DNA of 64,000 nucleotides, taken from contig NZ_JAHBYG010000010.1 in NCBI RefSeq assembly GCF_019636075.1, positions 1 through 64,000 of the forward strand, in the 5' to 3' direction. Position 1 is the stretch's first letter. Each line of letters begins with the position of its first letter. This DNA is from Ferrovibrio sp. (GTDB lineage Bacteria > Pseudomonadota > Alphaproteobacteria > Ferrovibrionales > Ferrovibrionaceae). Of the stretch, positions 4,503-22,459 are shown in pieces. The notes beneath the pieces were generated by a model. That model ran no database searches. It was not told the DNA's origin and worked only from the letters and a program-made list of their open reading frames with translations. The translations under genes and the position numbers were made by a program.

Positions 4503-5996
4503 TTACTGCCAGCTCAGGGCCGCCAGGTCGTTCACGAAGATCGGGGCATTCACCCACAAACCCTTCAGGCCGGCCTTGGCAACCGTGATGCGCGGCAGGT
4601 TGTAGAGGAACACATTCACCGAATCCTCGGCGATCTGGCGCTGCATGTCCTGCAGGGCCTTGGTGCGCACGGCCGGGTCGAGCGTGGAATTGGCGGTGTT
4701 GATGAAGCCCTGGGTCGCAGCGCTGTCATACTGCCAATAATAGTTCGGCTCGGCATACTTCACGTAATCGTTCGGCTCTACATGGCTGATGATGGTGAGG
4801 TCGTAGTTGAAGTTCTTGAACACCACATCCAGCCATTGCGCCCATTCCAGATTCTCGATCTTGGCGGTGATGCCAACATCGGCCAGCATGGCGGCCACCA
4901 ACTCGCCGCTACGGCGGGCATAGGCCGGCGGCGGCAGCTTCAAGGTCAGCTCGATCTTCTCGGCGCCGGCTTCCTTCAGCAGGGCCTTGGCCTTGGCCAC
5001 GTCGTAGGGATACTTGCCGGTCAGATCCACATAGGCCGGATCATGCGGCGGGAAATGGCTGCCGATCGGCTTGCCATAACCGAAATTCACGCCCTCGATG
5101 ATCGCCTTGCGGTCGATGGCATGAGCCAGCGCGCGGCGCACCCGCACGTCGCTCAGGTAAGGGCGTTTGTTGTTGGTGGAGACCATCGTCTCACCCTCGG
5201 TGGAACCCACCGTCACGGTGAAGCGCTTGTCCTTCTCGAATTGCGGCACATTCTCGCCGGTCAGGCCGATCGGCACGCCGTCCACATCGCCGGCCAGCAG
5301 GGCAGCCACCATGGCGGCCGGGTCGGAGATGAAGCGGAAGGTGACGCTCTTGAGCTTCACATCACTGCCCGGCGCGGCTTCGAGCATGACGGAATCGCCC
5401 TTCACCCATTTGCCGAACTTGTAGGGGCCGGTGCCCACCGGGTTGGTGGCGTTGGTGGCACGGCTTTCCGGCCCGGTGATCACGGCGGTGTTTTCGCCAA
5501 GGCTGAACAGGAAGGTCGGATCGGCCTTCTTCAGTTTCAGCTTCACCGTGGCGGCATCGGGGGTTTCGATGCTGGCGATGTTGGTAAACACCGCCTTGCG
5601 CTTGTTGGTGCTCTTCTCGCCGGCATAGGTTTCGAACGAGCTCTTCACATCGGCGGAATCGAAATCCGTGCCGTCATGGAACTTCACGCCGGTCTTCAGC
5701 TTGAAGGTGAACTCGGTCTGGTCCGGCGAGATGGTCCAGCTGGTGGCCAGCAGCGGCGCAACCTGGCCATTCTCGAGAATCCGGATCAAACCCTGGAAGA
5801 TGTTGATATGGGTGATTTCGCCGATCGCGGCGGCCGGCGCCACGGTGGGATCGAGGCCCGGCGGCTCCAGCACCATGGCCAGAACGGCGGCATCCTTGCG
5901 CGCCTGCGCGGCGGCCTGGTCGGCCCCGAAAGCCTGGGGAAGAGCCAGCGCGCCAATCAGCAGCGCACCGGTACCAAGCTGTTTCCAATTGAACAT
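4503..5996 (-). CDS. peptide-type ABC transporter substrate-binding protein (SBP family 5), orphan
   Basis: A periplasmic solute-binding protein of the DppA/OppA type (497 aa). A signal peptide (about residues 1-24, cut near AFGADQAAA) is followed by the family's landmarks: LEPPGLDP, a WTISPDQTEFTFKLKTGVKFHDG block, GTGPYKFGKW and VRRALAHAIDRKAI. It therefore probably binds a small peptide or similar amide compound for import. The ATG at 5996 has a textbook AGGAGG seven bases upstream. No permease or ATPase gene accompanies it. It is the last gene of a minus-strand run with a P1-family peptidase directly upstream, which hints at peptide substrates. Confidence 0.9.
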   Translation of the reverse strand: MFNWKQLGTGALLIGALALPQAFGADQAAAQARKDAAVLAMVLEPPGLDPTVAPAAAIGEITHINIFQGLIRILENGQVAPLLATSWTISPDQTEFTFKLKTGVKFHDGTDFDSADVKSSFETYAGEKSTNKRKAVFTNIASIETPDAATVKLKLKKADPTFLFSLGENTAVITGPESRATNATNPVGTGPYKFGKWVKGDSVMLEAAPGSDVKLKSVTFRFISDPAAMVAALLAGDVDGVPIGLTGENVPQFEKDKRFTVTVGSTEGETMVSTNNKRPYLSDVRVRRALAHAIDRKAIIEGVNFGYGKPIGSHFPPHDPAYVDLTGKYPYDVAKAKALLKEAGAEKIELTLKLPPPAYARRSGELVAAMLADVGITAKIENLEWAQWLDVVFKNFNYDLTIISHVEPNDYVKYAEPNYYWQYDSAATQGFINTANSTLDPAVRTKALQDMQRQIAEDSVNVFLYNLPRITVAKAGLKGLWVNAPIFVNDLAALSWQ

Positions 5997-6026
5997 AGAT
6001 TGCCTCCTGTTAAAACCCGCTTGTAT

Positions 6027-7073
6027 TTATTCAAGCGCTACTTTGCGGGCCGTGTCCAGCGCTCCGAGCGGTTCGGCCTGCCAGACCGCGCGCCCTACCG
6101 CCCGGGCAACGCAATCGGCGGCAATCGATCCGACCCGGGCAATCAGCAGCGGCAGCAGGCTACCGCCTGGCCCAACCTGTTCGGCCTGCCCCGATATCTG
6201 ATCCGGCCAATTGGCCGTCGCCAGCGAAAACAGCGTATCGCCATCGAACGGCGTATGAACCGGGCGGATCGACCGTGCCAGGCCATCATGGGCCATGGTG
6301 GCGACATGGCGCAGCGCCGCCTTATCCAAGGCGGCATTGGTGGCCACCACGCCGATGCAGGTATGGCCGCCGATCCGCGCTTCCTTGGGCAGGCTGGCCG
6401 GCACCTCGCGCGGCGGCGGGGCCGGCAGATTGCCGAACTCGCCGGCCTGTTCGAACGGCGCGGCCCAGAACCCCTTATTGCCCGGGGTCAGCACGCTGCC
6501 CACCGGATTGGCGGCCACCAGGGCTGCCACGATCAGGCCGTCATCCTCCACCCAGGATGCGCTGCCCACCCCGCCCTTCAGCTTGCCGGCCATCGCACCA
6601 TAGCCGGCGCCGGCATTGCCAAGCGCCACGGCATCGGCCGATGCCGCATCGCAGGCCGCCATGGCCAGCCGCCGATAGGGCGTTTCCCCATACTCCCCGG
6701 CAAGCCAATGCTTGTCGCCGCCATTCATCAGATCGAACAGGATCGCCGATGGCACGATGGGCACATTGATCGTATGCACCGCCAGGCCGCGGCCATGGCG
6801 GGCCAGCCATTGCACCACGCCGGATGCCGCATCCAGGCCATACACCGAGCCCCCGGCCAGGCAGATCGCATCGATCGCCGGCACCATGGCTTCGGGCCGC
6901 AGCAATTCGGTCTCCCGCGTGCCGGGGCCGCCGCCGCGCACATCCACGCTGGCCACCGCCCGCATCTGCGGCAGGATCACGCTCACCCCGGTACGCGCCG
7001 CCGCATCCTCGGCCTGGCCGACCAGCAGGCCGGCAATATCGGTCAGAGAATTCTTCGGGCCCGGACCTGCCAT
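6027..7073 (-). CDS. P1 family (S58, DmpA-like) aminopeptidase
   Basis: A 348-aa member of the DmpA/NylC N-terminal-nucleophile hydrolases, which cleave themselves and then hydrolyse amino-terminal amides or peptides. Glycine-rich motifs (LAGGSVYGLDAASGV, GNAGAGYGAM, KGGVGSAS) and the self-cleavage region GGHTCIGVVATNAAL are present. The likely nucleophile is Thr238. The residue before it is His, where the family more often has Asn or Gly. There is no signal peptide, so it acts in the cytoplasm. Its ATG lies three bases after the stop of the methyltransferase gene, and a peptide-binding protein follows 30 bases on, so the genes are probably co-transcribed. The substrate cannot be read from sequence. 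Confidence 0.88.
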   Translation of the reverse strand: MAGPGPKNSLTDIAGLLVGQAEDAAARTGVSVILPQMRAVASVDVRGGGPGTRETELLRPEAMVPAIDAICLAGGSVYGLDAASGVVQWLARHGRGLAVHTINVPIVPSAILFDLMNGGDKHWLAGEYGETPYRRLAMAACDAASADAVALGNAGAGYGAMAGKLKGGVGSASWVEDDGLIVAALVAANPVGSVLTPGNKGFWAAPFEQAGEFGNLPAPPPREVPASLPKEARIGGHTCIGVVATNAALDKAALRHVATMAHDGLARSIRPVHTPFDGDTLFSLATANWPDQISGQAEQVGPGGSLLPLLIARVGSIAADCVARAVGRAVWQAEPLGALDTARKVALE

Positions 7074-7076
7074 GGC

Positions 7077-7568
7077 TCAACTCATCATTTGGTAGAGAAA
7101 ATAGCGTTGTTTGGGGATATCCACCGGCGGCTCGCGCCGCTGCAGCGCGGGATTTTCCAAAGCCTGATCCGACAGCACGATGGCACCCGGCATGGCCAAC
7201 CGGGGCAACAGATCGGATATCCAGCCAAGCTGCTCGCGGTTGGCCTCGGTGTCGCCCAGGCCGGCATCGTAATGCAGCAACACGGCTTCATGCGGGTGCG
7301 CCTGGGCAAAGGCCGGCAGGCTTTCGGAAAATTCGCCCAGCACCAGCCAATCGGCCGGCGGCTTGGAGGCCGGATGGGCATTGTCGGCACGATCGAAGGC
7401 ATAGATCGGACGATTGGGCAGTTTTTCGCGCAGATGATCGAAGGTGCGGCCATTGCCCAAGCCGATTTCCAGCACCAGGCCGGGCTTAGAGGCGATTTCG
7501 CCTGTCGCCCAATCCAGCACCGCGCGCTGCGCCATCATCCGGCGGATGAAGCTGTCCAGGCGACTCAC
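7077..7568 (-). CDS. small class I SAM-dependent methyltransferase (GTG start)
   Basis: A 163-aa protein with the SAM-binding motif I (LVLEIGLGNGRTFDHL) and an acidic residue at the end of the next strand (YAFDRADN). It belongs to the Rossmann-type methyltransferases; the substrate is unknown. The frame is open further upstream, but the better start is GTG at 7568-7566, which overlaps the TGA of the upstream cyclic-nucleotide-binding gene as GTGA and implies translational coupling. An upstream extension would read antisense-like residues shared with the neighbouring gene. It is followed three bases later by the P1 peptidase gene. Confidence 0.75.
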   Translation of the reverse strand: MSRLDSFIRRMMAQRAVLDWATGEIASKPGLVLEIGLGNGRTFDHLREKLPNRPIYAFDRADNAHPASKPPADWLVLGEFSESLPAFAQAHPHEAVLLHYDAGLGDTEANREQLGWISDLLPRLAMPGAIVLSDQALENPALQRREPPVDIPKQRYFLYQMMS

Positions 7569-8026
7569 GTCTTGCCGTTCTGCTTGGCGGTAGCACTGCG
7601 CAGATCGGCCGTGGTGCGCTCCAGGCGCTGGGCCAACACGCGCATGATCTCGATGGCGATCTGCGGAAAATCGGTGATCAGCCGGAAAAACAGATCCTTG
7701 GTGATACGCAGCGTAACAAGTTCCGACACCGCCTTCACCGTGGCGGTGCGCGGCACGTCGCAAAGAATGGCGATCTCGCCCACGAAATCATTCTGCTTGA
7801 GCCGCGCCACGGTGAGCGGCCCGGATGGTGTATCCACCAACACATCGGCCTCGCCGCCGAAAATCACATAGGCCGCGTCGCCCGGATCGCCCTGGTGAAA
7901 CACCGTGTCGCCGGGCTTGTAGGTGATGCGCTGGCTGGTGAAGGCAAGCAGTTTCAGTTTCGCCGGCTCGATCTTGGCGAAAAGCGGGATGCGGCGGAGC
8001 AGTTCCACCTCTTCGTTAATGCTCAT
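7565..8026 (-). CDS. stand-alone cyclic nucleotide-binding domain protein
   Basis: A 153-aa protein made of one Crp-type nucleotide-binding beta barrel: an N-terminal helix with PLFAKIEPAKLKLLA, then VFHQGDPGDAAYVIFGGEADV, and the phosphate-binding cassette FVGEIAILCDVPRTATV. There is no DNA-binding domain, so it is not a Crp/Fnr transcription factor. Such single-domain proteins sense cNMP and act on a partner. It sits 72 bases downstream of the degenerate ABC protein gene on the same strand and is translationally coupled to a methyltransferase, so the ABC protein is a plausible partner. Confidence 0.88.
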   Translation of the reverse strand: MSINEEVELLRRIPLFAKIEPAKLKLLAFTSQRITYKPGDTVFHQGDPGDAAYVIFGGEADVLVDTPSGPLTVARLKQNDFVGEIAILCDVPRTATVKAVSELVTLRITKDLFFRLITDFPQIAIEIMRVLAQRLERTTADLRSATAKQNGKT

Positions 8027-8098
8027 GGCAAAAATCCTCTCAACGCATTCGAACCGGTAGTATCCGGCGAACCATAACTATCAGGCCGGGCGGCCTCC

Positions 8099-10750
8099 TC
8101 ACCCCTGCAACATTTTCTTGAACGCCTCGTTGCTGGCAGCCAGATCGGCATAACGACCATTGCCAACCACGCGGCCATCGGCAATCACCACAACAATATC
8201 GAAACCCTCGGCTTCGCTGACACGCTGCAGCGACCAGACCAAACCTGCCTGCTTGCGCTGTTCCAGCAAGGCCTGCAATACGGCGGCATGGCTGCGGGGG
8301 TCCAGCGATGCCGTGCTTTCCGACAGCATCACCCAATCCGGCTGCTTCAGCAATGCCCGGGCGATGGCAAGCTTCTGGCGCTGGCCTGAATTCAACCGCG
8401 CACCGGAGATGCCCACATCGAAATTGAAGCCCACTTCGATGATCGGATCGCGCAACTGCAATTGCTTGATCACATCGGCCATCACCGCGCCGATCTTCTC
8501 TTGCGCTTGCGCCTGGCCATAGGCCACCCGGCCGAACAGGATGTTGTCGACAATGCTGGCCGAGGCATTGAAATGCTCGGGATCGAAGAAGGCAATGGAG
8601 CCGCGGCGGTCTTCCGGCAGAGTCTGGGAAAATATCTTGCGGGCCTGCAGGATGGCGGCGCGGTCATTCTCGTCGATCTGCCCCAGGCGATGCCGGGTGA
8701 GGATCAACTTGAACGGCAGGGTCATCAGGCGCGCACGGTCGGCATCGGCCAGTTGGCCCAGATTGTCGGGCTTGGCGCGCGCCAGCAACTCCTTGTAATC
8801 GGGCAGATCGTCAGACGAGATGAAGCTGAATTGCTGGAAGAATTCATGGTCCGGCGGCAGATCGGCGAACAACTCCACCATCGTGCTGGCCACTTCATAG
8901 CCGATGCGCAGGAAGCGGTCGCGCAGCCCCACCTGCTCCAGCACCCCCAGCGTGAACGGATCGCTGGCCAGATTGTCCACATCGAAAATCAATTCGCGCG
9001 CGGTGCCGAACAACAGGTTCTCCGCCACCGTGGCATTGGTGTTGTAGCGTTCGGGATCCCAGCCTTCCACCAGATCGGCGATATCGCCATCGGCCAGCCG
9101 CGAGCGGAAGGCGCGACGGGCCTGCAGCACCCGGTCGGCCAATTCGCCGCGCTGCTTGGGATTGATGGTGCCGCGCATGCCGAACTGGAACACATCCTCG
9201 TCGAAAGCCGCGATGCGCAGCGCAGCTATAGCCGCGCGGCCCAGATCCTCGGGCTTGTCCACGCCGGCGGCTTTGTAATCGGTCCAGTCGGCGTCGACAT
9301 CGTAGAGAATATTGCCCGAGGCCTTCAACTCCACCAATTCGCGTTCGAAATGCTTGCGCTGGCGCTCGTTCATCTGGCGCTCATGCACCGGGCGATAACG
9401 CAGGCCGAGAAAGAGATTGTCGCCCAGGGTGGCGTTGAAGATATGCGCCGCCGAGCCGACATAGGCCAGCCGGCGGCCGGTCACGGTTTCGGGCAATTCG
9501 CTCAGCAGGCGGCCGTTGATCGAGACCTTGCCGCGCGTGGGCATCTGCAACCGCGCCAGCACCTGCAGAAAATCCTCGCGTCCAGACCCGCCCACCACGG
9601 CCACGCGCGCCGGCCAGGGTATGGTGAGCGACAGATTGTCGAGCACCGCATTGCCCTGGTCGTCGTTCAGGGTGAGGCTGCTGACGTTGATCGGGCCGTT
9701 CAACGGCACCGGCTCGGCCGGCTCCAGCAATTGGTCTTCCGGCGGCGGCATGCCTTCCGGTTCGAAATTGCTCACCACCTGCTCGTATTTCTGCTTCACA
9801 TCCTCGCGGGTCTGATAATGGTTGAGCAATTCCTTCCACGGCGCGGCCATTTCCTTGTGAGCATTCACGGCGGCGATCACCGTACCCACATCCATCTGGC
9901 CTTTGATCACCAGATAGCCGCCGATCGAGTAGAAGAAAAACGGCCCAAGCTGCTGGATGAAATTGTTGACGAACTTGATCACGAACTTGCGCTGGAAAAT
10001 CTCCACGCGAATCCAATAGCTGATGCCCAGCCGCTTGGCGAAATCGGCCAGCATGCGGTTGGAGCCATCATGGGTGTGCAACTCCACCACGCCGGTCACG
10101 GTCTCGCCGATGCGGTCCGACAGCCGACGCTGATTCTTGATACGCTCCTTGCCCAGCGCGCGCACCCGGCGCTGCAGCTTCGGCACGATGTAGAACTGAA
10201 TCGGATAAAGCGCCACGGCTGCCATGGCCATGACCGGATTCTGGATCACCAGAAAGCCGAAAATCACCAGCAGCATGCCGCCCTGGAAGATCGGCAGCGC
10301 GAAGCTTTCGCCGATGAAGCCGCCCACCGGTTCCACCTCGGCAATCACCATCGGAATGATTTCGCCCTGGCTGGTCTTGCGGAAAGTCGGCAGCGGAAAG
10401 CGCAGCACCTGGGCATACAGGTCATAACGCAGGCGGCGCAGCATGCGTTCGCCGGCAATGCCCTGAAATACGTTGATGGCGTATTTGAAGGCCTGCTGCA
10501 CCAGAACCAGCAGCAGAAAGCCGAAACAGAGAACAAGCAGGTAATCCACCTTGTCGAGGTGGAGCACGCCAAGGCCCCACAGATCCACCGGATAGGTAAC
10601 GTGCTTGCCGCCGATGCCCTCGTTGATGATCGTCTTGGGCATCGACAAATAGTAGTAGTAGGGTCCGAAGGACGCTACGGATAGCAGGGTGATGATGATC
10701 TGCTGCCGCAGACTGAAGCGTATGATGAATTTGTAGAGATTTTTTTCCAC
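8099..10750 (-). CDS. ABC exporter-like protein with eroded ATPase and three repeated NATxxxNLxFG segments
   Basis: 883 aa with a GTG start at 10750. Residues 1-320 form a six-helix exporter-type membrane domain. From about 350 comes a nucleotide-binding domain stretched to about 530 residues instead of about 230. Every catalytic motif is altered: Walker A is GGSGREDF (387-394, Lys replaced), the Q-loop Gln is gone (YVGSAAHIF), the signature is LNSGQ (786-790), Walker B is WVMLSES (Asp replaced by Ser) and the switch His is Gln842. The segment after the Q-loop occurs three times: NATLGDNLFLG (439-449), NATVAENLLFG (572-582) and NASASIVDNILFG (728-740). The membrane half is intact, so it is not a simple pseudogene. 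It heads the minus-strand run with the cNMP-binding protein and diverges from the glycosyltransferase operon, so a role in envelope glycan export or its control is possible. Confidence 0.85.
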   Translation of the reverse strand: MEKNLYKFIIRFSLRQQIIITLLSVASFGPYYYYLSMPKTIINEGIGGKHVTYPVDLWGLGVLHLDKVDYLLVLCFGFLLLVLVQQAFKYAINVFQGIAGERMLRRLRYDLYAQVLRFPLPTFRKTSQGEIIPMVIAEVEPVGGFIGESFALPIFQGGMLLVIFGFLVIQNPVMAMAAVALYPIQFYIVPKLQRRVRALGKERIKNQRRLSDRIGETVTGVVELHTHDGSNRMLADFAKRLGISYWIRVEIFQRKFVIKFVNNFIQQLGPFFFYSIGGYLVIKGQMDVGTVIAAVNAHKEMAAPWKELLNHYQTREDVKQKYEQVVSNFEPEGMPPPEDQLLEPAEPVPLNGPINVSSLTLNDDQGNAVLDNLSLTIPWPARVAVVGGSGREDFLQVLARLQMPTRGKVSINGRLLSELPETVTGRRLAYVGSAAHIFNATLGDNLFLGLRYRPVHERQMNERQRKHFERELVELKASGNILYDVDADWTDYKAAGVDKPEDLGRAAIAALRIAAFDEDVFQFGMRGTINPKQRGELADRVLQARRAFRSRLADGDIADLVEGWDPERYNTNATVAENLLFGTARELIFDVDNLASDPFTLGVLEQVGLRDRFLRIGYEVASTMVELFADLPPDHEFFQQFSFISSDDLPDYKELLARAKPDNLGQLADADRARLMTLPFKLILTRHRLGQIDENDRAAILQARKIFSQTLPEDRRGSIAFFDPEHFNASASIVDNILFGRVAYGQAQAQEKIGAVMADVIKQLQLRDPIIEVGFNFDVGISGARLNSGQRQKLAIARALLKQPDWVMLSESTASLDPRSHAAVLQALLEQRKQAGLVWSLQRVSEAEGFDIVVVIADGRVVGNGRYADLAASNEAFKKMLQG

Positions 10751-10944: not shown

Positions 10945-12186
10945 ATGGTGACACGCAGCGACGGCACGCGTGTGCTGATCTACAGCCACGACACATTCGG
11001 ACTTGGACATCTGCGTCGTTGCCGCACGCTGGCGCATGCCCTGGTGGAGAATAATCCCGATATGTCGGTGATGATTCTTTCCGGGTCGCCGATCATCGGC
11101 AGTTTCGATTTTCGCAGCCGGGTGGATTTCGTCCGCGTGCCGGGCGTGATCAAGCTGCGCGACGGCCAATACACCTCGCTCAACCTGCCGATCCATATCG
11201 AAGAAACTCTCAAGTTGCGGGCCGAAATCATCCAGCACACCGCCCGGGTGTACGACCCCGACATCTTTATTGTCGACAAGGAGCCGCTGGGCCTGCGCGG
11301 CGAGGCGCTGGATACCATGCGCATGCTGAAGGCACGCGGCACCCGCCTGGTGCTGGGCCTGCGCGATGTGATGGACGAGCCGAAGGCGCTGGAACCGGAA
11401 TGGCGCCGCAAAAACGTGATGCCGGCCCTGCGCAACCTCTACGACCAAATCTGGGTGTATGGCCTGCCGCAATTCTGCGATCCGCTGGAAGGCATCGAAC
11501 TGCCCGAGAAGGTGAAGCGCAAGATCGTCTATACCGGCTATCTGCCGCGCACCTCCGACGAACCGCCGCCCGAGCATCAATTGCCCGAGATCGTGCAGCG
11601 TCCCTTCCTGCTGGTCACCCCCGGCGGCGGTGGCGATGGCGAAGGCCTGATCGAATGGGTGCTGCGCGCCTATGAAAGCAACGAAATGCTGCCCTACCCG
11701 GCGCTGCTGGTGCTGGGTCCGTTCATGCAGCGCGAGCGGCGCCGCGAATTCCTCTCCCGCGTGGCCAAGCTGCCGCGGGTGGAGGCGATCACCTTCGATG
11801 CCCATATGGAGCATATCGTGAAGAATGCCGTGGGCGTGATTGCCATGGGCGGCTACAACACCTTCTGCGAAATCCTGTCGTTGAACAAACGCGCCATCAT
11901 CGTGCCGCGCAAAAAGCCCCGCATGGAGCAGTTCATCCGCGCCTCCCGCGCGCAGGAACTCGGCCTCACACGCATGCTGGAAGACGACGAGACCTACGAT
12001 CCCGCCGTGATGGCCGCCGCGATCCGCGCCCTGCCGCGCCAGCGCCTGCCGTCTGAAGTGGTGATTCCCGGCCTGCTGGAAGGCCTGGAGAATGTCGATC
12101 GCCTGGTCAAGCCGTGGCTGCGACCGGTCAAAACCGAGGAAACCACCACCGAAGCTTCGGGCCAGGTGATCGAGTTCCGCGCATAA
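10945..12186 (+). CDS. MurG/GT28-like glycosyltransferase
   Basis: A 413-aa GT-B fold protein. Its N-terminus VLIYSHDTFGLGHLRRCRTLA carries the glycine/His loop typical of MurG-type enzymes. The C-terminal half has VTPGGGGDGEGLIEW and the nucleotide-sugar loop region GVIAMGGYNTFCEIL...RAIIVPRKKPRMEQ, as in GT28. It would transfer a sugar from an NDP donor in the cytoplasm. It opens the plus-strand glycan cluster; the ATG at 10945 follows a G-rich stretch that can serve as ribosome site. The gene at 15178 encodes a second protein of the same type. Confidence 0.82.
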   Translation: MVTRSDGTRVLIYSHDTFGLGHLRRCRTLAHALVENNPDMSVMILSGSPIIGSFDFRSRVDFVRVPGVIKLRDGQYTSLNLPIHIEETLKLRAEIIQHTARVYDPDIFIVDKEPLGLRGEALDTMRMLKARGTRLVLGLRDVMDEPKALEPEWRRKNVMPALRNLYDQIWVYGLPQFCDPLEGIELPEKVKRKIVYTGYLPRTSDEPPPEHQLPEIVQRPFLLVTPGGGGDGEGLIEWVLRAYESNEMLPYPALLVLGPFMQRERRREFLSRVAKLPRVEAITFDAHMEHIVKNAVGVIAMGGYNTFCEILSLNKRAIIVPRKKPRMEQFIRASRAQELGLTRMLEDDETYDPAVMAAAIRALPRQRLPSEVVIPGLLEGLENVDRLVKPWLRPVKTEETTTEASGQVIEFRA

Positions 12187-12190
12187 CAAG

Positions 12191-13441
12191 ATGAGTGTAT
12201 CCGATGCGCCGGCGGTGGCGCCCGCAGTGGCTTTTGTTCTGAAAGGCTATCCGCGCCTGTCTGAAACCTTCATCGCCCAGGAAATCGAGGCGTTGGAGCG
12301 GCGCGGCCTGGATATCCTGATCGTCAGCCTGCGCCACCCTACCGACAAGAAACGCCATCCGGTGCATGACCGCATCCAGGCCAATCTGCTGTATCTGCCG
12401 GAATATCTGTATCAGGAACCGCTGCGCGTGCTGCGCGGCTGGTGGCGGGCCCGCAAGCTGCCCGGCTTTGGCGAAACGCTGAAACTGTGGTGGCGCGACA
12501 TGTTGCGCGACCCCACGCCCAATCGCGGCCGCAGGCTTGGCCAGGCCCTGGTGCTGGCCGCCGAGCTACCGGCGAAATACCGCCATCTGCATGCGCATTT
12601 CGTGCATACGCCAGGTTCGGTCGCGCGCTATGCCGCGCATCTGCTGGGCCTGCCCTGGACCGCCTCCGCCCATGCCCGCGACCTGTGGATCACGCCGGAT
12701 TGGGAAAAGACGGAAAAATTCAACGATTGCCGCTGGGCCGTCACCTGCAATGCCCATAACGTGGCCCATCTGAACCAACTCGGCGTGGGCAATAAGGTGA
12801 CCCTGGTTTATCACGGCATCGATCTGGATCGTTTTCCGCCCGGTACGGAGCGGCCGCCGCGCGATGGCGCCGATCCAGCCGATCCGGTGCGCCTGCTTTC
12901 GGTCGGCCGCGCCGTCGAAAAGAAAGGCTACGACATCCTGCTGCAAGCCCTGGCCGACCTGCCCGCCGATCTGCATTGGCATTTCGAGCATATCGGCGGC
13001 GGGCCGAAGCTGCCGCAATTGCAGCAGCAAGCCAGCCAGCTCGGTATCGCCGGCCGCATCGCCTGGCGCGGCGCGCAGGCTCAGGCTGCTGTGATCGAAG
13101 CCTGCCGCAATGCCGATCTTTTCGTGCTGGCCAGCCGCAAGGACAAGGATGGCGACATGGATGGCCTGCCCAATGTGCTGATGGAAGCCCAGAGCCAGGG
13201 CCTGGCCTGCCTGTCCACGGCCTTTTCCGCCATCCCCGAATTGATCCGCGATGGCGAAACCGGCCTGCTGGTACCGCCCGATGATGCGCCGGCGTTGAGC
13301 GCGGCTCTTGCCAGACTGATCGCCGATCCAACCCTGCGCCAGCGCCTGGGGACAGCCGGCGAACAGCGCGTCCGCGGCCATTTTTCCATGCGGGCCGGCA
13401 TCGACGAACTGGCCCGCCGCTTCGGTTTGCAGGCCGCCTGA
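12191..13441 (+). CDS. GT4-family glycosyltransferase
   Basis: A 416-aa GT-B enzyme close to the WcaL/AmsK type of exopolysaccharide glycosyltransferases. The N-terminal motif VLKGYPRLSETFIAQEIEALE is characteristic. The C-terminal donor domain has LLSVGRAVEKKGYDILLQAL, LFVLASRKD, GLPNVLMEAQSQGLACLST and IPELIRDGETGLLVPPDD, including the paired-Glu E-x7-E region. It starts four bases after the preceding stop and so belongs to the same operon. It probably adds one residue of an envelope or secreted glycan; acceptor and sugar are unknown. Confidence 0.88.
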   Translation: MSVSDAPAVAPAVAFVLKGYPRLSETFIAQEIEALERRGLDILIVSLRHPTDKKRHPVHDRIQANLLYLPEYLYQEPLRVLRGWWRARKLPGFGETLKLWWRDMLRDPTPNRGRRLGQALVLAAELPAKYRHLHAHFVHTPGSVARYAAHLLGLPWTASAHARDLWITPDWEKTEKFNDCRWAVTCNAHNVAHLNQLGVGNKVTLVYHGIDLDRFPPGTERPPRDGADPADPVRLLSVGRAVEKKGYDILLQALADLPADLHWHFEHIGGGPKLPQLQQQASQLGIAGRIAWRGAQAQAAVIEACRNADLFVLASRKDKDGDMDGLPNVLMEAQSQGLACLSTAFSAIPELIRDGETGLLVPPDDAPALSAALARLIADPTLRQRLGTAGEQRVRGHFSMRAGIDELARRFGLQAA

Positions 13442-13457: not shown

Positions 13458-14597
13458 ATGAGAATTGGCTTTTACGCACCGCTTAAGCCGCCCGACCATC
13501 CCTCGCCATCCGGCGACCGGCGCATGGCGCGGCTGCTGATCGCCGCGCTGAGCGGCATGGGGCATGACGTGCAGGTGATTTCCGATCTGCGCAGCTATAA
13601 CAGCGATGGCAATACTGCGCGCGAAACCTCGATCGCCGCCGCCGCGCGCGACGAGGTACAGCGCCTCACCGGCGTTTTCAGTGGGCCGCCGCCACGCCTG
13701 CCGGATTTGCTGTTCACCTATCATGTCTATCACAAGGCCGCCGACTATATCGGCCCGGCGCTGAAGCATCGCTTCAACATTCCCTATGTTATCGCCGAGC
13801 CTTCGGTGGCGCCCAAACGCGCCAATGGACCCTGGGCGAAAGGCTATGCCCAGGCCGCGCTGGCGATCCGCTCGGCCGATGCGCTGCTCTGCCTCACCAC
13901 GCTGGACCGCGCCTGCGTGATCGATCTGGCCGGCGCAGACAAGGTGATTGCCCTGCCGCCTTTCCTGGAAGCCGCGCCCTATGCCCGGGTGCAGCGCCAT
14001 CGCGCCGAATTGCGCCCGGTCTGGGCCGCGCAATACCGCTTGCCGGCCGACGAACCCTGGCTGCTGGCGGTGGGCATGATGCGGCAAGGCGACAAGCTGG
14101 CCTCGTTCCGCGCCCTGGCCGAGATGCTGAAACAGGCGCAAGATATTCCCTGGCGGCTGATCGTCGCCGGCGATGGCCCGGCGCGCGAAGAGGTGGAAGC
14201 CGTGATGGCGCCGCTGGGCGGCCGGGTCTGCTTCACCGGGTTGCTGGCCGCCGAGCAACTGGCCGGTGCCTATACGGTGAGCGACCTCTATGTATGGCCC
14301 GCCGTGAACGAGGCCTATGGCATGGCCCTGCTGGAAGCCCAGGCCTGCGGCCTGCCGGTGTTGGCCGCGCAAACCCGTGGCGTGCCCGATATCGTGCGGC
14401 AGAACGAGACCGGGCTGCTCACCCCGGAAGGCGACATGGCCGCCATGGCCGATGGCCTGCGCAGCCTGCTGGCTGATCTTCCGGCCCTGGGCCGCATGCG
14501 CGACGCCGCACTGGCGAAAGTTTCCGCCGAGCATGACCTGGCCGCCGCGCAACGCAATCTGACGCAGGTTTTCCGCAATCTGGGGCTGCCGGCATGA
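13458..14597 (+). CDS. GT4-family glycosyltransferase
   Basis: A 379-aa GT-B enzyme. The N-terminus MRIGFYAPLKPPDHPSPSGD is the acceptor-side loop seen in many GT4 proteins. The donor domain reads WLLAVGMMRQGDKLASFRALAEML, RLIVAGDGPAREEV, DLYVWPAVNEAYGMALLEAQACGLPV and GVPDIVRQNETGLLTPEGD. It is the second GT4 enzyme of the cluster. Its stop overlaps the start of the histidine phosphatase gene by four bases (ATGA), indicating coupled translation. Confidence 0.88.
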   Translation: MRIGFYAPLKPPDHPSPSGDRRMARLLIAALSGMGHDVQVISDLRSYNSDGNTARETSIAAAARDEVQRLTGVFSGPPPRLPDLLFTYHVYHKAADYIGPALKHRFNIPYVIAEPSVAPKRANGPWAKGYAQAALAIRSADALLCLTTLDRACVIDLAGADKVIALPPFLEAAPYARVQRHRAELRPVWAAQYRLPADEPWLLAVGMMRQGDKLASFRALAEMLKQAQDIPWRLIVAGDGPAREEVEAVMAPLGGRVCFTGLLAAEQLAGAYTVSDLYVWPAVNEAYGMALLEAQACGLPVLAAQTRGVPDIVRQNETGLLTPEGDMAAMADGLRSLLADLPALGRMRDAALAKVSAEHDLAAAQRNLTQVFRNLGLPA

Positions 14598-15181
14598 CCC
14601 AGCTTGCCTTGCTGCGCCATACCCGCACCGCCTGGAATATCGATGGCCGGCTGCAAGGCCGCACGGATATTCCGGCATTGGAGGAGTCCCTGGCCGGCCT
14701 GCGCAAACTGGCCGTGCCGCAGCCCTATGCCGGCTGGCCATGGCGCAGCAGCCCGCTCTTGCGCACCCGTCAAACCGCAGAGGCCCTTGGCCTGGCAGCC
14801 CAGCCCGAGCCGGCCTTGATCGAAACCTCCTGGGGCGATTACGAAGGCCTGACCATCGCGCAGTTGCAAGCCCGCTATGGCGAGGATTTCGCCGCCAACG
14901 AGGCGCGTGGGCTGGACCTGCTGCCGCCCAATGGCGAAAGCCCGCGCCAGGTGCAGGCCCGCTTGCTGCCCTGGCTGGCCGAACTGGCGCAAACCGGCGT
15001 GGATACCGGCGCGGTAACCCATAAAGGCGTGATCCGTGCCATCATGGCGCTGGCCTATGACTGGCCGATGCTGGGCAAACCACCGGTGAAGCTGGATTGG
15101 AAGGCGCTGCATGTCTTCCGCCTGGACGCCGATGGCACGCCGCGCCCGTTGCTGATGAATGTAACCCTGGTGCCACGATGA
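14594..15181 (+). CDS. histidine phosphatase family protein
   Basis: A 195-aa member of the phosphoglycerate-mutase-like superfamily. The catalytic RH motif is LLRHTRTAWN, with the phospho-accepting His9; RTRQTAEAL and GAVTHKGVIRAIM supply the conserved Arg and the second His. These enzymes dephosphorylate small molecules. Within a glycan gene cluster the substrate may be a sugar phosphate or a polyprenyl-type intermediate, but this is inference. It overlaps both neighbours by ATGA. Confidence 0.88.
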   Translation: MTQLALLRHTRTAWNIDGRLQGRTDIPALEESLAGLRKLAVPQPYAGWPWRSSPLLRTRQTAEALGLAAQPEPALIETSWGDYEGLTIAQLQARYGEDFAANEARGLDLLPPNGESPRQVQARLLPWLAELAQTGVDTGAVTHKGVIRAIMALAYDWPMLGKPPVKLDWKALHVFRLDADGTPRPLLMNVTLVPR

Positions 15182-16341
15182 ACCGCGTGTTGATTTATGT
15201 GCAGCATCTGCTGGGCGTGGGGCATCTGCACCGCACGGCGGCGATTGCGCGCGCCCTGGTGCGCGATGGGTTCGAAACCATGCTGGTTTCCGGCGGTTAT
15301 CCCGATACCACATTGGACCGGCTGGACGGCATCCAGTTCCGGCAATTGCCGCCGGCGCGGGCCGCCGATGCCAGCTTCCGCATCATCCTGGATGCACATG
15401 GCAATCAGGTTGACGAGGCATGGTGGCAAAGCCGCCGCGCCGCCCTGTTCGCCCTGTCCGATGGTTTCAAGCCCGATGCGGTGCTGACCGAACTCTTCCC
15501 GTTCGCGCGCCGCCCGATGCGCCATGAATTGCTGCCATGGCTGGCCCATCTGCATGAGATGCAGCCGCGTCCGCTGATCTATTCCTCGGTGCGCGACATC
15601 CTGGTGGATCGCCCCAAGCCGCAACGCGACCTGGATGCGCTGAACTGGCTGCGCAGCTATTACGATGGCGCCTTCGTGCATGGCGATCCCACGCTGATCC
15701 CGTTCGAGCGCACCTTCCCGCTGGCCACAACGGTGCAGGATCTGCTGATCTATACCGGCTATATCGTGGAGCATGCGCCGGCCAGGGCCACATCCGATGG
15801 CCGCGACGAAGTGCTGGTCTCGGCCGGCGGTGGCGCGGTGGGGTTGCCGCTGTTTCATGCCGCGATTGCCGCCCGGCCGCTGAGCCAGGCCAAGGATGCC
15901 ACCTGGCGCCTGCTGGTCAGCCCGATGGAAGCGCCCGATGCGGTGGCCGAACTCAAGGCGCGCAGCCCTGCCGGCGTGATCGTGGATCAGGCGCGGCCGG
16001 ATTTTCCCGCCATGTTGCAGCATTGCCGCCTCAGCATCAGCAAGGCCGGCTATAATACCGTGATGGAAACCCTGCATGCCCGCGCCCGCGCCGTGATCGT
16101 GCCGTTTGCCGGCGGCGACGAAACCGAACAGGCCCTGCGTGCCGAATTGCTGGCCGCGCGCGGCGCCATGGCCTATCTGCGCGAAAGCGAGCTTACGCCG
16201 CAAAGCCTGGCCGCAGCCATCGACCGCGCATTGGCGGCACCCAAGCCGCAGGATAGCCATGTGGATCTGGATGGCGCCGCCCATACCGCGCGGCTGCTGC
16301 GTGAAAAACTCGCGCTGCGCAAAAATCCGATCGCCCGATGA
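15178..16341 (+). CDS. MurG/GT28-like glycosyltransferase, second copy
   Basis: A 387-aa GT-B protein with the start MNRVLIYVQHLLGVGHLHRTAAIA, matching the glycine/His loop of the gene at 10945. Its C-terminal half has EVLVSAGGGAVGLPLF and LSISKAGYNTVMETLHARARAVIVPFAG, the donor-binding loop of GT28 enzymes. The frame is open upstream, but ATG 15178 gives the exact N-terminal motif and an ATGA overlap with the phosphatase. It also overlaps the deacetylase gene downstream by four bases. The two GT28-like proteins are clearly of one type but not near-identical, so they may act on successive sugars. Confidence 0.85.
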   Translation: MNRVLIYVQHLLGVGHLHRTAAIARALVRDGFETMLVSGGYPDTTLDRLDGIQFRQLPPARAADASFRIILDAHGNQVDEAWWQSRRAALFALSDGFKPDAVLTELFPFARRPMRHELLPWLAHLHEMQPRPLIYSSVRDILVDRPKPQRDLDALNWLRSYYDGAFVHGDPTLIPFERTFPLATTVQDLLIYTGYIVEHAPARATSDGRDEVLVSAGGGAVGLPLFHAAIAARPLSQAKDATWRLLVSPMEAPDAVAELKARSPAGVIVDQARPDFPAMLQHCRLSISKAGYNTVMETLHARARAVIVPFAGGDETEQALRAELLAARGAMAYLRESELTPQSLAAAIDRALAAPKPQDSHVDLDGAAHTARLLREKLALRKNPIAR

Positions 16342-17102
16342 GCTGGGATGCACTCAGCCGGCTGCTGGATGAGCGCGCCGCGGCCAAACGCCGGGCGCTG
16401 TTCTGGTGGCGCGACGACGATGCCGCAACCCCCACGCCTGACTTGCAGCGCCTGCTCGATCTGCGCCGCGCATATGCTTTGCCGCTGGCGCTGGCGGTGA
16501 TCCCGAATCAAGCCTCCGCCGAATTGGCCGGTCTGCTGCAGTCGGAACCGGATGTTGCCGTGCTGCAGCATGGCTTTGCCCATATCAATCACGGCGCCGC
16601 CGGCGAAAAGAAATCCGAATTCCCCACCAGCCGCCCGGCCAGCGATTGCCTGGCCGATCTGCGCCATGGCCGCGAAATCCTGCGCGGCCTGTTCGGTCCG
16701 CGCCTGCGGCCGGTGCTGGTGCCGCCTTGGAATCGCATCGCGCCGGCTCTGCTGCCGCATCTGCCGCGGCTGGGGTTGCATGGCCTGTCCACCTTCAAGG
16801 CCCGGGAGGATTCCTGGGCGGCTCCGGGGCTGATGCAGGTGAATACCCATCTCGATCCGGTGAATTGGAAGGCAGATGCAGGCTTTATCGGCCTGCAAGG
16901 CGCGCTCGACACGGTTTTGCTGCACCTGCGTAATGACAGCGACGAACCGCTCGGCCTGCTCACCCATCATGCCCGCCATGATGCGGAAACCTGGGATTTC
17001 ATTGCGGTATTCCTGGCCAAGACAGGCAGCCATCCCGGCGCTTTGTGGCTGGATGTGGATTCGGCCTTCGGCGCAGGGCCGCAATCCGGCCAACGGGCCT
17101 GA
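16338..17102 (+). CDS. polysaccharide deacetylase-like protein
   Basis: A 254-aa protein of the NodB/carbohydrate esterase 4-like fold. WRDDDAA (Asp26-Asp28) corresponds to the catalytic and metal Asp motif. LQHGFAHINH supplies metal-binding His78 and His82, VPPWNRI is the third conserved block and LLTHHARHD is the C-terminal His motif. No signal peptide is evident, so it may act on a lipid-linked or cytoplasmic intermediate rather than on exported polymer. It closes the glycan cluster and overlaps the GT28-like gene by ATGA. Confidence 0.85.
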   Translation: MSWDALSRLLDERAAAKRRALFWWRDDDAATPTPDLQRLLDLRRAYALPLALAVIPNQASAELAGLLQSEPDVAVLQHGFAHINHGAAGEKKSEFPTSRPASDCLADLRHGREILRGLFGPRLRPVLVPPWNRIAPALLPHLPRLGLHGLSTFKAREDSWAAPGLMQVNTHLDPVNWKADAGFIGLQGALDTVLLHLRNDSDEPLGLLTHHARHDAETWDFIAVFLAKTGSHPGALWLDVDSAFGAGPQSGQRA

Positions 17103-17105
17103 CGC

Positions 17106-17615
17106 ATGGTTGTCATAAGCCGCATGTATTACCCCATGGCGCGATTGTGGCCGGATCTGCTGCGGGCTGGCCTTGGGGTGCTGTTTTGCCTGGCTCTGAT
17201 GTTGTTTACTGCTCCGGTTTCTGTCATTTTTACAATACTTTGCGGGGTAAGCCTGATCTTCCTCTGGCTCGCCCTGCATACGGTGTTGCGGCTACAGACA
17301 AAGTTCGAGCTGGATACCGAGGGGGTTAGCCGCCAAGGTGCCGGTTGGTTCGGGGGCCGCTTGCGCCGTCTGAACTGGGATGGATTGCGTGGCATGACGC
17401 TGCGTTACTACTCCACCCGGCGCGACGGTTCGCAAGGCTGGATGACGATTACGATGCAGGGCGACGGGGGAACATTGCGCGCCGATAGCGACCTAGAGGA
17501 TTTCACCCTGCTGGTGGAACAGGCCCTGGCGGCTGCCGCGCGCCTGAACCTGACATTGGACGACCGTAGTTTGAGCAACGCCAGCCGCCTTCTGGGCCGG
17601 GATATTTCACGATGA
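17106..17615 (+). CDS. small membrane protein with two N-terminal helices, unknown function
   Basis: A 169-aa protein I do not recognise. Residues about 15-60 form two hydrophobic helices. The remainder (TKFELDTEGVSRQG... LRRLNWDGLRGMTLRYY...) looks like a small beta-rich cytosolic domain, similar in feel to bacterial PH-type domains of membrane proteins. It starts three bases after the deacetylase stop and its own stop overlaps the ABC ATPase start by ATGA. It therefore bridges the glycan cluster and the importer genes. An internal ATG at 17124 is an alternative start. Confidence 0.7.
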   Translation: MVVISRMYYPMARLWPDLLRAGLGVLFCLALMLFTAPVSVIFTILCGVSLIFLWLALHTVLRLQTKFELDTEGVSRQGAGWFGGRLRRLNWDGLRGMTLRYYSTRRDGSQGWMTITMQGDGGTLRADSDLEDFTLLVEQALAAAARLNLTLDDRSLSNASRLLGRDISR

Positions 17616-19507
17616 GCGATATGTCGCAGCCGGTGATCGAGGTCAACGACCTGAAAGTGCAGTTCCGCGTGGCGGAGGGCACGATCAAGGCCGTGGATGG
17701 CGTGAGTTTCCGCGTGCCGCGCGGCAAGACCGTGTCGCTGGTCGGCGAAAGCGGCTCGGGCAAATCGGTGGTAAGCCAGGCCATCATGGGCATCCTGCCG
17801 CGTTCAGCCGAGATTGCCGGCGGCGAAATCCTGTTCCGCGATCCTGCCCTGCCCGACAGCATGATCGACATCGCCAAGCTGAAGCGCGGCGGGCCGGAAA
17901 TGCGCAAGCTGCAAGGCGGCCGCATTTCGATCATCTTCCAGGAACCGATGACCAGCCTCAGCCCGCTGCACACCATCGGCAACCAGATCGTCGAGGCGCT
18001 GCGGCTGCACCGCAATGCCAGCCAGGCCGAAGGCGAGGAATTGTCCACCGAGATGCTGCGCCTGGTGGGCTTCCCCGATCCCAAGCGCGCGCTGAACACC
18101 TACGCCTTCGAATTGTCGGGCGGCCTGCGCCAGCGCGCCATGATCGCCATGGCGCTGGTCTGCCGGCCCGCCTTGCTGATCGCCGACGAACCCACAACGG
18201 CGCTGGACGTGACCATCCAGGCGCAGATCCTCAAGCTGATCAAGGATCTGCAATCCGAGTTGGACATGGCCGTGCTGATGATCACCCACGACCTTGGCGT
18301 TGTGGCCAACATGGCCGACGAGATCGTGGTGATGTATCACGGCCGGGTGATGGAGCGTGGCTCGCTGGAAGACATCTTCCGCCATCCCGAGCATCCCTAC
18401 CTGAAAGCCCTGCTGAATGCCGTGCCGCGCTTCGACATGAAGCCCGGCGAGCGCCTGGTGCCGATCCGCGAAATCAAGGCGGAAGTGGGCGGCCTGCTGA
18501 AGCGCGGCGCCCAGACCATCACCGAAACCGGCGTGCCGCTGCTGGAAGTGAAGCATCTGACCAAGCGCTTCAGCATCCGCAAGAGCGGCCTGTTCGCCGC
18601 GAAATCCGCCTCGTCCGCCCTGGCGGTGGATGATGTGAGCTTCGATGTGCTGCGCGGCGAATGCTTAGGGCTGGTGGGCGAAAGCGGTTGCGGCAAGACC
18701 ACCACCAGCAAAATGATCATGCGCGCCGTAACGCCCGACGAAGGCAGCATCAAGTATCACGACGGCACCAAACAGGCGGACGTTCTGAAACTGGACGGCG
18801 CGGACCTGTTCGATTACCGCCGCAAAGTGCAGTTCATCTTCCAGGATCCGTTCTCCTCGCTCAATCCGCGCATGACGGTGTTCGATATCGTCTCCGAGCC
18901 GCTGGTGATCCACAAGATCGGCGACGAAGCCGAGCGGTTCGAGCGCGTGAAGGAATTGATGACCCTGGTGGGTCTGGATGTGCGCCATCTGCGGCGCTAT
19001 CCGCACAGTTTCTCAGGCGGCCAACGCCAGCGTATCGGCATTGCCCGCGCGCTTGCCCTGCAGCCCGACCTGCTGATCTGCGACGAGCCGGTTTCCGCCC
19101 TCGATGTTTCGATCCAGGCGCAGGTGCTCAACCTGTTGAAGGATCTGAAAAAGGAACTCGGCCTCACCTACCTGTTCATCTCGCATAACCTGGCCGTGGT
19201 GGATTACATCGCAGACCGCATCGCCGTGATGTGCGCCGGCCGGCTGGTGGAACTGGCGCCGCGCGAATTGCTGTTCAAGCAGCCGGTGCATCCCTACACC
19301 AAGGCCCTGCTGGCCGCCGTGCCCAAACCCGATCCGTCCTGCCGCCTCGATCTGCGGCTGCTGATGGAAGGCAAGGCATCCAATCCGGCGCTCTGGGCCG
19401 CCCCTTTCACTATCGACGGCACAACCCGCCCCGCGTTGATCGACCTCGGCAACGGGCATTTTGTTCGCGCATCCGCCGAAGCCGATGCACGGGAGCTTGT
19501 GGCATGA
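17612..19507 (+). CDS. dual-ATPase subunit of a peptide-type ABC importer (DppD-DppF fusion)
   Basis: A 631-aa protein with two complete oligopeptide-type ATPase domains in one chain, like YejF. The first (about 8-290) has Walker [10 protein letters not shown], signature LSGGLRQR and Walker [13 protein letters not shown]. The second (about 310-600) has [17 protein letters not shown] and [12 protein letters not shown], each with a switch His (ITHDLG, ISHNLA). Both sites look active. It powers the permeases encoded at 21424 and 22460. Translation is coupled to the membrane protein before it and the binding protein after it by ATGA overlaps. Confidence 0.93.
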
Positions 19508-21408
19508 AAGCTTTTTCCTTTTCCTCTATTTCCTGCGCGCTGATCGGCCTGATCGTTCTGGCATCGCACCCCGTTCAAGCGCAATACAAGGAAAGCAATA
19601 GCCTTACCGCAGATGTTGCGGCCGGCAAATTGCCGGCGGTGGACAAGCGCCTGCCCGCCGTGCCGCTGAAGATGAATCTCACCGGCGCCTACAAGCCGGG
19701 TCAGCAGGGCGGCGAAATCCGCATGCTGATCCCGCGTGCCCGCGATGTGCGCATTCTCAACACGCTGGGCTATGCCCGCCTGGTGGTTTACAACGACAAA
19801 TACGAATTCGTGCCCGATATCGTGGAAAGCTTCACGGTTGAGGATGAGAAGGTGTTCACCTTCAAGCTGCGCAAGGGCCATAAATGGTCCGATGGCGCGC
19901 CCTTCACGTCCGATGATTTCCGTTATTACTGGGAGGATGTGGCCAACAACAAGGAAATCAGCCCGTCCGGCCCGCCGATCGATCTCTATGCCGATGGCGA
20001 ATTGGCCAAGGCGGAGTTTCCCGATGAACTGACCGTGCGCTATAGCTGGAGCAAGCGCAATCCCAACTTCCTGCCGCGCATTGCCGGCACCGCCGCCTTC
20101 AACCTATATCGCCCGGCGCATTACCTGAAGCAGTTCCACGCCCGCTACACCGATGCCGCCACGCTGGCGCAACTGGCCGCCAAGGAGCGCCGCGCCAACT
20201 GGGCCTCGCTGCACAACAAGCTGGACAACATGATCGAGACCGACAATCCCGATCTGCCCACCCTGGATCCCTGGATGATCCAGACCCGGCCGCCGGCCAT
20301 CCGCTTCGTGGCAGTGCGCAATCCTTATTTCCATCGCGTGGACCAGAATGGCGTGCAATTGCCCTATCTCGACCGCGTGCTGATGTCGCAGGCCGATGGC
20401 AAGCTGATTCCGGCCAAGACCGGCGCCGGCGAGGCCGACCTGCAATTCCGCGTCATCACCTTCAGCAACTTCACCTTCCTGAAGGAAAACGAAAAGCGCG
20501 CCGGCTATCGCACCCTGCTGTGGAAGACCGCCAAGGGTTCGCATCTGGCGCTGTTCCCCAACATGAATGCCAACGATCCGGTCTGGCGCAAATTGCTGCG
20601 CGAAGCACGGTTCCGCCAGGCCCTGTCGCTGGCCATCGACCGCGAGGCCGTGAATCAGTCGCTGTTCTACGGTCTTGCGCTGGCATCCAACAACACCGTG
20701 CTGCCGGAAAGCCCGTTGTTCAAGCCGGAATACCAGACCAAGGATGCGCAATTCGATCTTGCCCGCGCCAACAAGATTCTGGACGAACTGGGCCTGAACA
20801 AGCGCAATTCCGATGGCGTGCGTCTGCTGCCCGATGGCCGCCCGCTGGAAATCATCATCGAAACCGCCGGCGAAAGCAGCGAGCAGGTGGACGTGCTGGA
20901 ACTGATCGCCGAAACCTGGATCAAGGCCGGCGTGAAGCTGTTCCCCAAGCCGAGCCAGCGCGACGTGCTGCGCAACCGCATCTTCGCCGGCGAGGCGCTG
21001 ATGAGCGTGTGGACCGGACTGGAGAATGGCGTGCCGATCGCCAATACCAGCCCGATCGAACTGGCCCCCACTTCGCAATACCAGTTGCAATGGCCGAAAT
21101 GGGGCCAGTTCTACGAGACCAAGGGCCAGATGGGCGAAACGCCCGACGAACCCGAAGCCAAGGAATTGCTAGCGCTCTACGATCAATGGGTGAACACCGG
21201 CGACATCGCCAAGCGCGAACAGATCTGGCATCGCATGCTGAGCATCCATGCCGACCGCATGTACAGCATCGGTGTGATTTCCGGCGTGTTCCAGCCCATC
21301 GTGGTGAACCAGAAGCTGGTGAACGTGCCCGATGAAGGCATTTACAACTGGGATCCGGGCGCACTGGTTGGTATGTACCGGCCGGAAACCTTCTGGATGA
21401 AGCAGTAA
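19504..21408 (+). CDS. peptide-type ABC substrate-binding protein, long form
   Basis: A 634-aa periplasmic SBP family 5 protein, longer than DppA and nearer the YejA size class. It has a signal peptide ([27 protein letters not shown]), then GGEIRMLIPRARDVRILNTLGYARLVVYN, FTFKLRKGHKWSDGAPFTSDDF and FRQALSLAIDREAV. The frame is open far upstream inside the ATPase gene; ATG 19504 is chosen because the signal peptide starts there and it overlaps the previous stop by ATGA. It probably delivers a large peptide or glycopeptide-like solute to the permeases downstream. Confidence 0.9.
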   Translation: MKAFSFSSISCALIGLIVLASHPVQAQYKESNSLTADVAAGKLPAVDKRLPAVPLKMNLTGAYKPGQQGGEIRMLIPRARDVRILNTLGYARLVVYNDKYEFVPDIVESFTVEDEKVFTFKLRKGHKWSDGAPFTSDDFRYYWEDVANNKEISPSGPPIDLYADGELAKAEFPDELTVRYSWSKRNPNFLPRIAGTAAFNLYRPAHYLKQFHARYTDAATLAQLAAKERRANWASLHNKLDNMIETDNPDLPTLDPWMIQTRPPAIRFVAVRNPYFHRVDQNGVQLPYLDRVLMSQADGKLIPAKTGAGEADLQFRVITFSNFTFLKENEKRAGYRTLLWKTAKGSHLALFPNMNANDPVWRKLLREARFRQALSLAIDREAVNQSLFYGLALASNNTVLPESPLFKPEYQTKDAQFDLARANKILDELGLNKRNSDGVRLLPDGRPLEIIIETAGESSEQVDVLELIAETWIKAGVKLFPKPSQRDVLRNRIFAGEALMSVWTGLENGVPIANTSPIELAPTSQYQLQWPKWGQFYETKGQMGETPDEPEAKELLALYDQWVNTGDIAKREQIWHRMLSIHADRMYSIGVISGVFQPIVVNQKLVNVPDEGIYNWDPGALVGMYRPETFWMKQ

Positions 21409-22449: not shown

Positions 22450-22459
22450 GGTTTACACA

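Follow-up and report, generated by a model that had tools for sequence, protein, structure and literature searches.

A gene in a 64,000-nucleotide stretch of the Ferrovibrio sp. genome (hereafter the window) encodes an ABC-exporter-like protein whose ATPase motifs are extensively altered, whose NBD contains the unit running from the Q-loop to the signature helix three times, and whose gene is directly followed downstream by one for a cyclic-nucleotide-binding (cNMP) protein. The reading that we favour, at a probability of roughly one half, is that this protein is a gate or flippase of exporter fold, impaired as an ATPase and controlled by a cyclic nucleotide, which would serve the polysaccharide of its gene cluster. 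As part of the same explanation, and with no more assurance than an even bet, we regard its relatives as an ancient and conserved family of ATPase-degenerate exporter-fold proteins. The observation itself is real and does not reflect local decay. Genes of this kind are annotated, or would be annotated, as 'ABC transporter ATP-binding protein' (they are in several records), and a working ATP pump would then be assumed. If confirmed, the favoured reading would provide a bacterial, genetically tractable ABC exporter turned second-messenger-controlled gate, and a function for an uncharacterised part of the Sinorhizobium meliloti PPP cluster; about a third of the sampled Alphaproteobacteria genomes and model rhizobia carry this gene.

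Exporter fold, ATPase motifs and the repeated helical subdomain

The gene and the features of its product are as follows.

8099-10750, minus strand: ABC-exporter-like protein gene, 883 aa, GTG start
9761-10750, minus strand: exporter-type transmembrane half (PF00664, E 2e-22; predicted helices; dN/dS), residues 1-330
9569-9592, minus strand: degenerate Walker A GGSGREDF, residues 387-394, Lys to Arg and Ser/Thr to Glu
9065-9481, minus strand: repeat unit A, residues 424-562, with Q-loop strand, post-Q-loop segment 1, helices and ARxxF helix
9404-9436, minus strand: post-Q-loop segment 1, residues 439-449, Asn445 in 132/132 relatives
8597-9085, minus strand: repeat unit B, residues 556-718, an extra degenerate copy with N-x-NAT..ENLLFG
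9005-9037, minus strand: post-Q-loop segment 2, residues 572-582, Asn578 in 132/132
8333-8617, minus strand: repeat unit C, residues 712-806, a helical subdomain of canonical type with the signature helix
8531-8569, minus strand: post-Q-loop segment 3, residues 728-740, Asn736 and Gly740 each in 132/132
8381-8395, minus strand: degenerate signature LNSGQ, residues 786-790
8315-8335, minus strand: Walker B WVMLSES, residues 806-812, Asp to Ser, catalytic-position Glu retained
8225-8227, minus strand: switch His replaced by Gln842 (SLQRV)

Pfam places ABC_membrane at residues 70-294 of the protein and ABC_tran (PF00005, E 3e-11) in two separate stretches, and the matches to PF00664 and PF00005, together with structural matches at Z about 30, identify it as a member of the ABC exporter fold. 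The top NCBIfam match is MsbA, with 169.8 bits against a curated cut-off of 602 (TIGR02203), and an assignment as the MsbA lipid A flippase was rejected on account of a score so far under the cut-off.

The initial annotation described every ATPase motif of this protein as eroded, and the motif strings on which it relied are all present at their positions in the 8099-10750 ORF. Five motifs are indeed altered; Walker A has no Lys and is two residues shorter than the GxxGxGK of the relatives, the Q-loop reads YVGSAAH at residue 430 and lacks Gln, and the signature, Walker B and switch positions are changed as listed above. The word 'every' goes too far, however, because the catalytic-position Glu (residue 811) and the D-loop Asp (residue 817) are retained and Walker B differs only by the change of Asp to Ser. 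When six canonical features were scored, namely Walker A GK[ST], the Q-loop Gln, the SGG of the LSGGQ signature, the Walker B Asp, the catalytic Glu and the switch His, the window protein was found to hold just the catalytic Glu.

Judged from the alignment, the altered ATPase is a trait of the family as a whole. A complete set of the six features is found in 0/132 aligned full-length relatives, the maximum being four of six. The Walker A Lys position is occupied by K in 79 and by R in 43 of the 132 (122/132 together), and the residue following it is D or E in 96/132 and S or T in 15/132. The Walker B Asp position holds N in 73/132, S in 30/132 and D in 18/132, while the catalytic-position Glu is present in 81/132 and the switch His in 38/132. 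The A-loop aromatic has been replaced by T, S or V in most relatives, and I or V stands in place of the X-loop Glu. Walker A is unrecognisable in Rhodobacterales-type members, and in the window protein and its close Ferrovibrio relatives the Lys, the Q-loop Gln, the switch His and the A-loop aromatic are all absent together. The frequent retention of a Walker A Lys or Arg and of the catalytic-position Glu means that ATP binding or slow hydrolysis may be possible, as may residual or unorthodox ATP use by the family.

A NAT block reported at residues 439, 572 and 728 was the second feature on which the initial annotation remarked. The three segments are present, but the repeated element is larger and comprises the whole unit from the Q-loop to the signature helix; where a canonical exporter NBD has a single such unit, the window protein has three. 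One invariant Asn in each of the three post-Q-loop segments is retained throughout the 132 relatives, across which conservation is higher in segments 2 and 3 than in segment 1. When family profiles of the units were compared with hhalign, B and C aligned with a score of 74 (E 6e-13; best of 60 column shuffles 19), A and B with 43 (E 1e-6; best of 60 shuffles 21) and A and C with 36 (E 5e-6; best of 60 shuffles 16), and a chance origin of the three NAT segments was ruled out by these shuffles. A profile of nine canonical exporter NBDs served as the reference for the identity of the copies. Copy C matches it over 87 columns that run from Q-loop to signature (E 1e-18) and is for this reason taken to be the canonical helical subdomain, whereas copy A matches in the Q-loop strand (E 4e-9) and copy B over 33 columns (E 5e-4).

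Structure prediction, which the initial annotation had proposed, returned an exporter fold with repeated secondary structure. The AlphaFold model (mean pLDDT 86, pTM 0.80) consists of a normal exporter half and about 260 extra residues, and a pattern of strand, helix, strand, helices and long helix occurs in it three times, with the long helices 535-552 and 694-710 (ARxxF) predicted in the position of the signature helix 788-801. Without the extra units the NBD core superimposes on the ComA NBD with Z 30.7 and an rmsd of 1.9 Å over 238/240 residues; the whole model matches TM287/288, Sav1866 and PCAT1 at Z about 30, and SUR chains are also among its structural matches. The 262 extra residues modelled alone (mean pLDDT 88) gave no Foldseek match at E<0.001, and the best matches at a second look were ABC exporters at a weak Z of 5.0-5.3. 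We rejected the insert as a known separate domain, with nothing in Foldseek and exporter matches too weak for use alone.

Distribution, selection and gene neighbourhood

A profile of 84 relatives (E<=1e-150) detected the family in 96/289 sampled alphaproteobacterial genomes, and a scan of 84,980 species yielded at least 367 relatives, some of them on contigs labelled beta- or gammaproteobacterial. In a phylum-wide draw 27/27 positives came from a single class, the Alphaproteobacteria, and the family is therefore mainly alphaproteobacterial. Relatives also reside on rhizobial megaplasmids; a search for a phage homologue found none. The full-length relatives are colinear, free of internal stops and 70-80% identical within the genus and 40-60% beyond it, the protein of one Ferrovibrio genome being 80% identical. 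Within-genus dN/dS (Nei-Gojobori), another of the proposed checks, is 0.05-0.22 for the whole gene and at most 0.35 in any region, indicative of purifying selection, and is lowest in the membrane half in most pairs. Full-length homologues share the three segments, and none of the 132 aligned has the canonical ATPase set. Either an intact Walker A together with a single NAT segment in close homologues, or signs of decay, had been named as grounds for seeing here only a local pseudogene; both were looked for and neither was found.

The surroundings of the gene contain the following features.

7077-7763, minus strand: class I SAM methyltransferase (PF12692; Pfam, 80-locus comparison), often next in the cluster
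7565-8026, minus strand: cyclic-nucleotide-binding (Crp-type) protein, 153 aa, its phosphate-binding cassette GEIA..PRTA intact
10945-12186, plus strand: GT28-type glycosyltransferase, divergent from the ABC gene, matching the S. meliloti gene that is smb21265 by gene order
12191-13441, plus strand: GT4 glycosyltransferase a
13458-14597, plus strand: GT4 glycosyltransferase b
14594-15181, plus strand: histidine phosphatase
15097-16341, plus strand: second GT28-type glycosyltransferase
16338-17102, plus strand: polysaccharide-deacetylase-like protein, 36-39% to deacetylases annotated in rhizobia and Azospirillum
17106-17615: 169-residue protein with no Pfam or NCBIfam match, at 47/80 loci
17612-19507, plus strand: fused OppDF-type double ATPase, both Walker A motifs intact
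19231-21408, plus strand: family 5 solute-binding protein, its true start probably downstream of that of the listed ORF
21424-23629, plus strand: OppB and OppC type permeases
24494-25324, minus strand: MBL-fold hydrolase, 43% to its MBL counterpart in the rhizobial cluster

The listed start of the methyltransferase overlaps the cNMP gene, and its true start probably lies nearer 7560. Most of the cluster genes (the glycosyltransferases, the phosphatase, the deacetylase-like protein and the Opp-type set) recur at most of 80 loci compared, and the glycan cluster is absent in the clades L141-L145, L147 and L148. A search of the 10 kb around each of the 80 loci found no other exporter-type ABC gene. 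Further downstream, at 4503-7073 of the window, lie genes for a family 5 solute-binding protein and an S58 peptidase, linked to the ABC gene at just 4/80 and 1/80 loci, respectively, and on account of this rarity probably not part of the system.

A cNMP homologue occurs at 70/80 loci, at 67 of which it lies a short way downstream of the ABC gene and on its strand, and the cNMP domain is fused to the ABC protein itself in 13 sampled members. The fusion is C-terminal in L066, L073, L081, L083 and L084 and is found again in L141-L144, L149, L150, L152 and L153; on the tree, the fused or separate state has changed at least three times. The predicted ligand residues are well kept among the cNMP proteins (G 73/73, E 70/73, R 73/73, T/S 72/73), with a degenerate site in Rhodobacterales-type members; the PRT motif of the cNMP protein is of the Thr type. 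The features by which we would define a cNMP-partnered pseudo-ABC family, a triplicated unit with invariant Asn and an adjacent or fused cNMP protein with its ligand residues, are both found here. The genome of the window has 13 class III cyclase matches. An ORF at 61628-62593 of the window, far from the ABC gene, is 43% identical to a cyclase of the Mesorhizobium cluster. L081 and L083 carry a degenerate GGDEF-like stretch after the fused cNMP domain.

The same gene set is present on rhizobial megaplasmids, with adenylate/guanylate cyclase genes inside it, and spans about 824-846 kb of S. meliloti pSymB. There the cNMP gene is followed by an FkbM gene and then by SM_b21272, which is of the LacI family (PMC11387232); from this position, gene order would place the ABC gene at about SMb21269 and its cNMP neighbour at about SMb21270, both inside smb21252-smb21271. 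Nine genes within smb21252-smb21271 are reported to be needed for an uncharacterised surface polysaccharide, PPP, and Tn insertions in smb21252-smb21271, like insertions in the adenylate cyclase gene cyaA, sensitise S. meliloti to phazolicin (PMC10128002). The window locus shares gene set and order with this cluster, including the ABC and cNMP genes, and on sequence comparison its neighbourhood matches it, the equivalence of the tags being deduced from gene order. The likeness has its limit in that both the structure of PPP and what the ABC protein does are uncharacterised (PMC10128002); the cluster is of importance for the tolerance of antimicrobial peptides and probably for symbiosis (PMC10128002). 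The S. meliloti homologue (L184 around 18000, pSymB about 842128) is split into two frames in the 1021 record and is in one piece in the 2011 record, which may be either a sequencing difference or a real change.

Candidate functions and known systems

In ordinary exporters the helical subdomain docks onto the membrane half. We read the conservation of the three copies as selection that maintains a triplicated docking module while the catalytic set has been released. In our proposal the canonical catalytic set would have disappeared from the NBD, which would have acquired two further copies of the helical subdomain, and the ABC protein would work with the adjacent or fused cNMP protein. Binding of cAMP or cGMP to this partner would shift the domain with its three modules against the coupling helices, and this shift would open, close or bias the membrane half, allowing the passage or flipping of a surface-polysaccharide intermediate from the neighbouring glycosyltransferases without full ATPase cycles. 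We infer that the partner binds and controls the ABC protein, that ATP hydrolysis is not sustained and that the substrate is a polysaccharide; the cNMP protein could also act elsewhere than on the ABC protein. More tentatively, and with the odds against it, the family as a whole may have turned an exporter fold without ATP-driven transport into a cyclic-nucleotide-gated polysaccharide conduit or flippase, in which the triplicated NBD helical subdomain is the gating linkage. The initial annotation had envisaged a regulated channel, a flippase partner or a scaffold rather than a pump. This fits the family-wide ATPase degeneracy, the purifying selection and the constant cNMP partner, but a 'flippase partner' of another half-transporter sits poorly with the lack of a second exporter-type ABC gene around the 80 loci.

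The main rival, somewhat unlikely in our estimation, is a non-transporting membrane scaffold or sensor that holds the glycosyltransferases or the Opp-type transporter and relays the cNMP signal with no passage of substrate. ATPase degeneracy across the family, the constancy of the cNMP partner and a sister family that retains the membrane half alone (see below) are all consistent with it. On the other hand, the membrane half is the most constrained part of the protein and has a normal exporter fold in the model, and we noticed no further gene for an exporter or flippase among the conserved ones, so that a scaffold would leave the polysaccharide without a local exit.

A working ATPase of unorthodox chemistry, a conventional exporter in which the acid after the Walker A Lys replaces the Walker B Asp as a ligand for Mg, is less probable again. 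An acid at this K+1 position coincides with N or S at the Walker B position in 80/132 relatives (Fisher p 0.001 among the rows with an acid or S/T), and the retained Lys or Arg and catalytic-position Glu also speak for it. However, among nine independent supported contrasts on the tree about 2 agree and 0.2 disagree, which is not significant; the naive p value of the Walker A to Walker B 'charge swap' is lost once phylogeny is accounted for, and we rejected the swap as a result and keep it as a suggestion. The joint absence of the Lys, the Q-loop Gln, the switch His and the A-loop aromatic in the Ferrovibrio proteins and the unrecognisable Walker A of the Rhodobacterales-type members also argue against such chemistry.

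It is very unlikely that the protein is the degenerate half of a heterodimeric exporter akin to TM287/288 or TmrAB, with the gene for its canonical half at another place in the genome. Heterodimers commonly have degenerate sites (PMC7756269) and other exporters are present in the genome, yet in 80 neighbourhoods no linked canonical half was found, whereas the cNMP gene is constantly linked, and the Walker A/B side is degenerate as well as the signature side. A local pseudogene or decaying gene, suggested by the eroded-looking motifs of a single sequence, is ruled out for practical purposes by full-length open frames in all close relatives, the low dN/dS and the invariant positions in 132 relatives.

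CFTR and SUR have an exporter fold and use a degenerate site in gating, one as a channel and the other as a channel regulator. The window family has no sequence family match to them; they retain one canonical site and are not partnered with a cNMP protein in this way. Together with BcsA, Alg44 and PelD, c-di-GMP controls polysaccharide export after translation, and the idea of messenger-controlled export is common to these systems and our proposal, although the messenger, the receptor domain and the membrane protein each differ. The type IV (ABCB-like) exporters MsbA, Sav1866, PCAT1/ComA and TM287/288 share the membrane half and the NBD core fold (Z about 30); unlike them, the window family lacks the canonical ATPase set in every relative, scores far under any family cut-off and has about 260 extra residues, that is two more helical-subdomain copies, as well as a cNMP partner.

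Degenerate ABC sites paired with a canonical site are well known (PMC7756269). The degenerate-site exporters TAP, TmrAB, TM287/288, BSEP, ABCG5/G8 and Pdr5 (NBS1) carry substitutions at the same motifs, ABCG5/G8 including the change of Lys to Arg (PMC7756269), but they pair the degenerate site with a canonical one, whereas the window family has no linked canonical partner. The initial annotation held that a protein with all five motifs changed belonged to no family it could name. We found no description of the family in the literature searched on degenerate NBDs, cNMP and glycosyltransferases, but a fully changed site is not in itself unique; in fungal Pdr5 all motifs of NBS1 are changed while the second site is canonical (PMC7756269). 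What is apparently new, in a bacterial exporter that seems to be homodimeric, is the loss across a whole family, along with the threefold helical subdomain and the constancy of the cNMP partner; we found none of these described in the literature searched.

Divergent and membrane-half-only relatives

The proteins of one sister family, about 320-400 aa long, have the membrane half but no NBD (L174, minus strand, 6865-8325, genome G010; L175-L180). This sister family occurs in 9/142 alphaproteobacterial genomes, all nine of which also carry the full-length protein, and suggests that the exporter fold is viable without an NBD. Plasmids of the Roseobacter group encode further membrane-half-only relatives (L187, 8773-10077, 434 aa; L188, 8773-10011, 412 aa), which lie in a copper cluster after genes for a copper oxidase and plastocyanin. 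L141-L144 (G170, G039) form a divergent clade in which one genome can have as many as three paralogues, Walker A is unrecognisable, the fused cNMP domain has a changed phosphate-binding cassette and the glycan cluster is absent. The long N-terminal extension of L151 is probably an ORF artefact.
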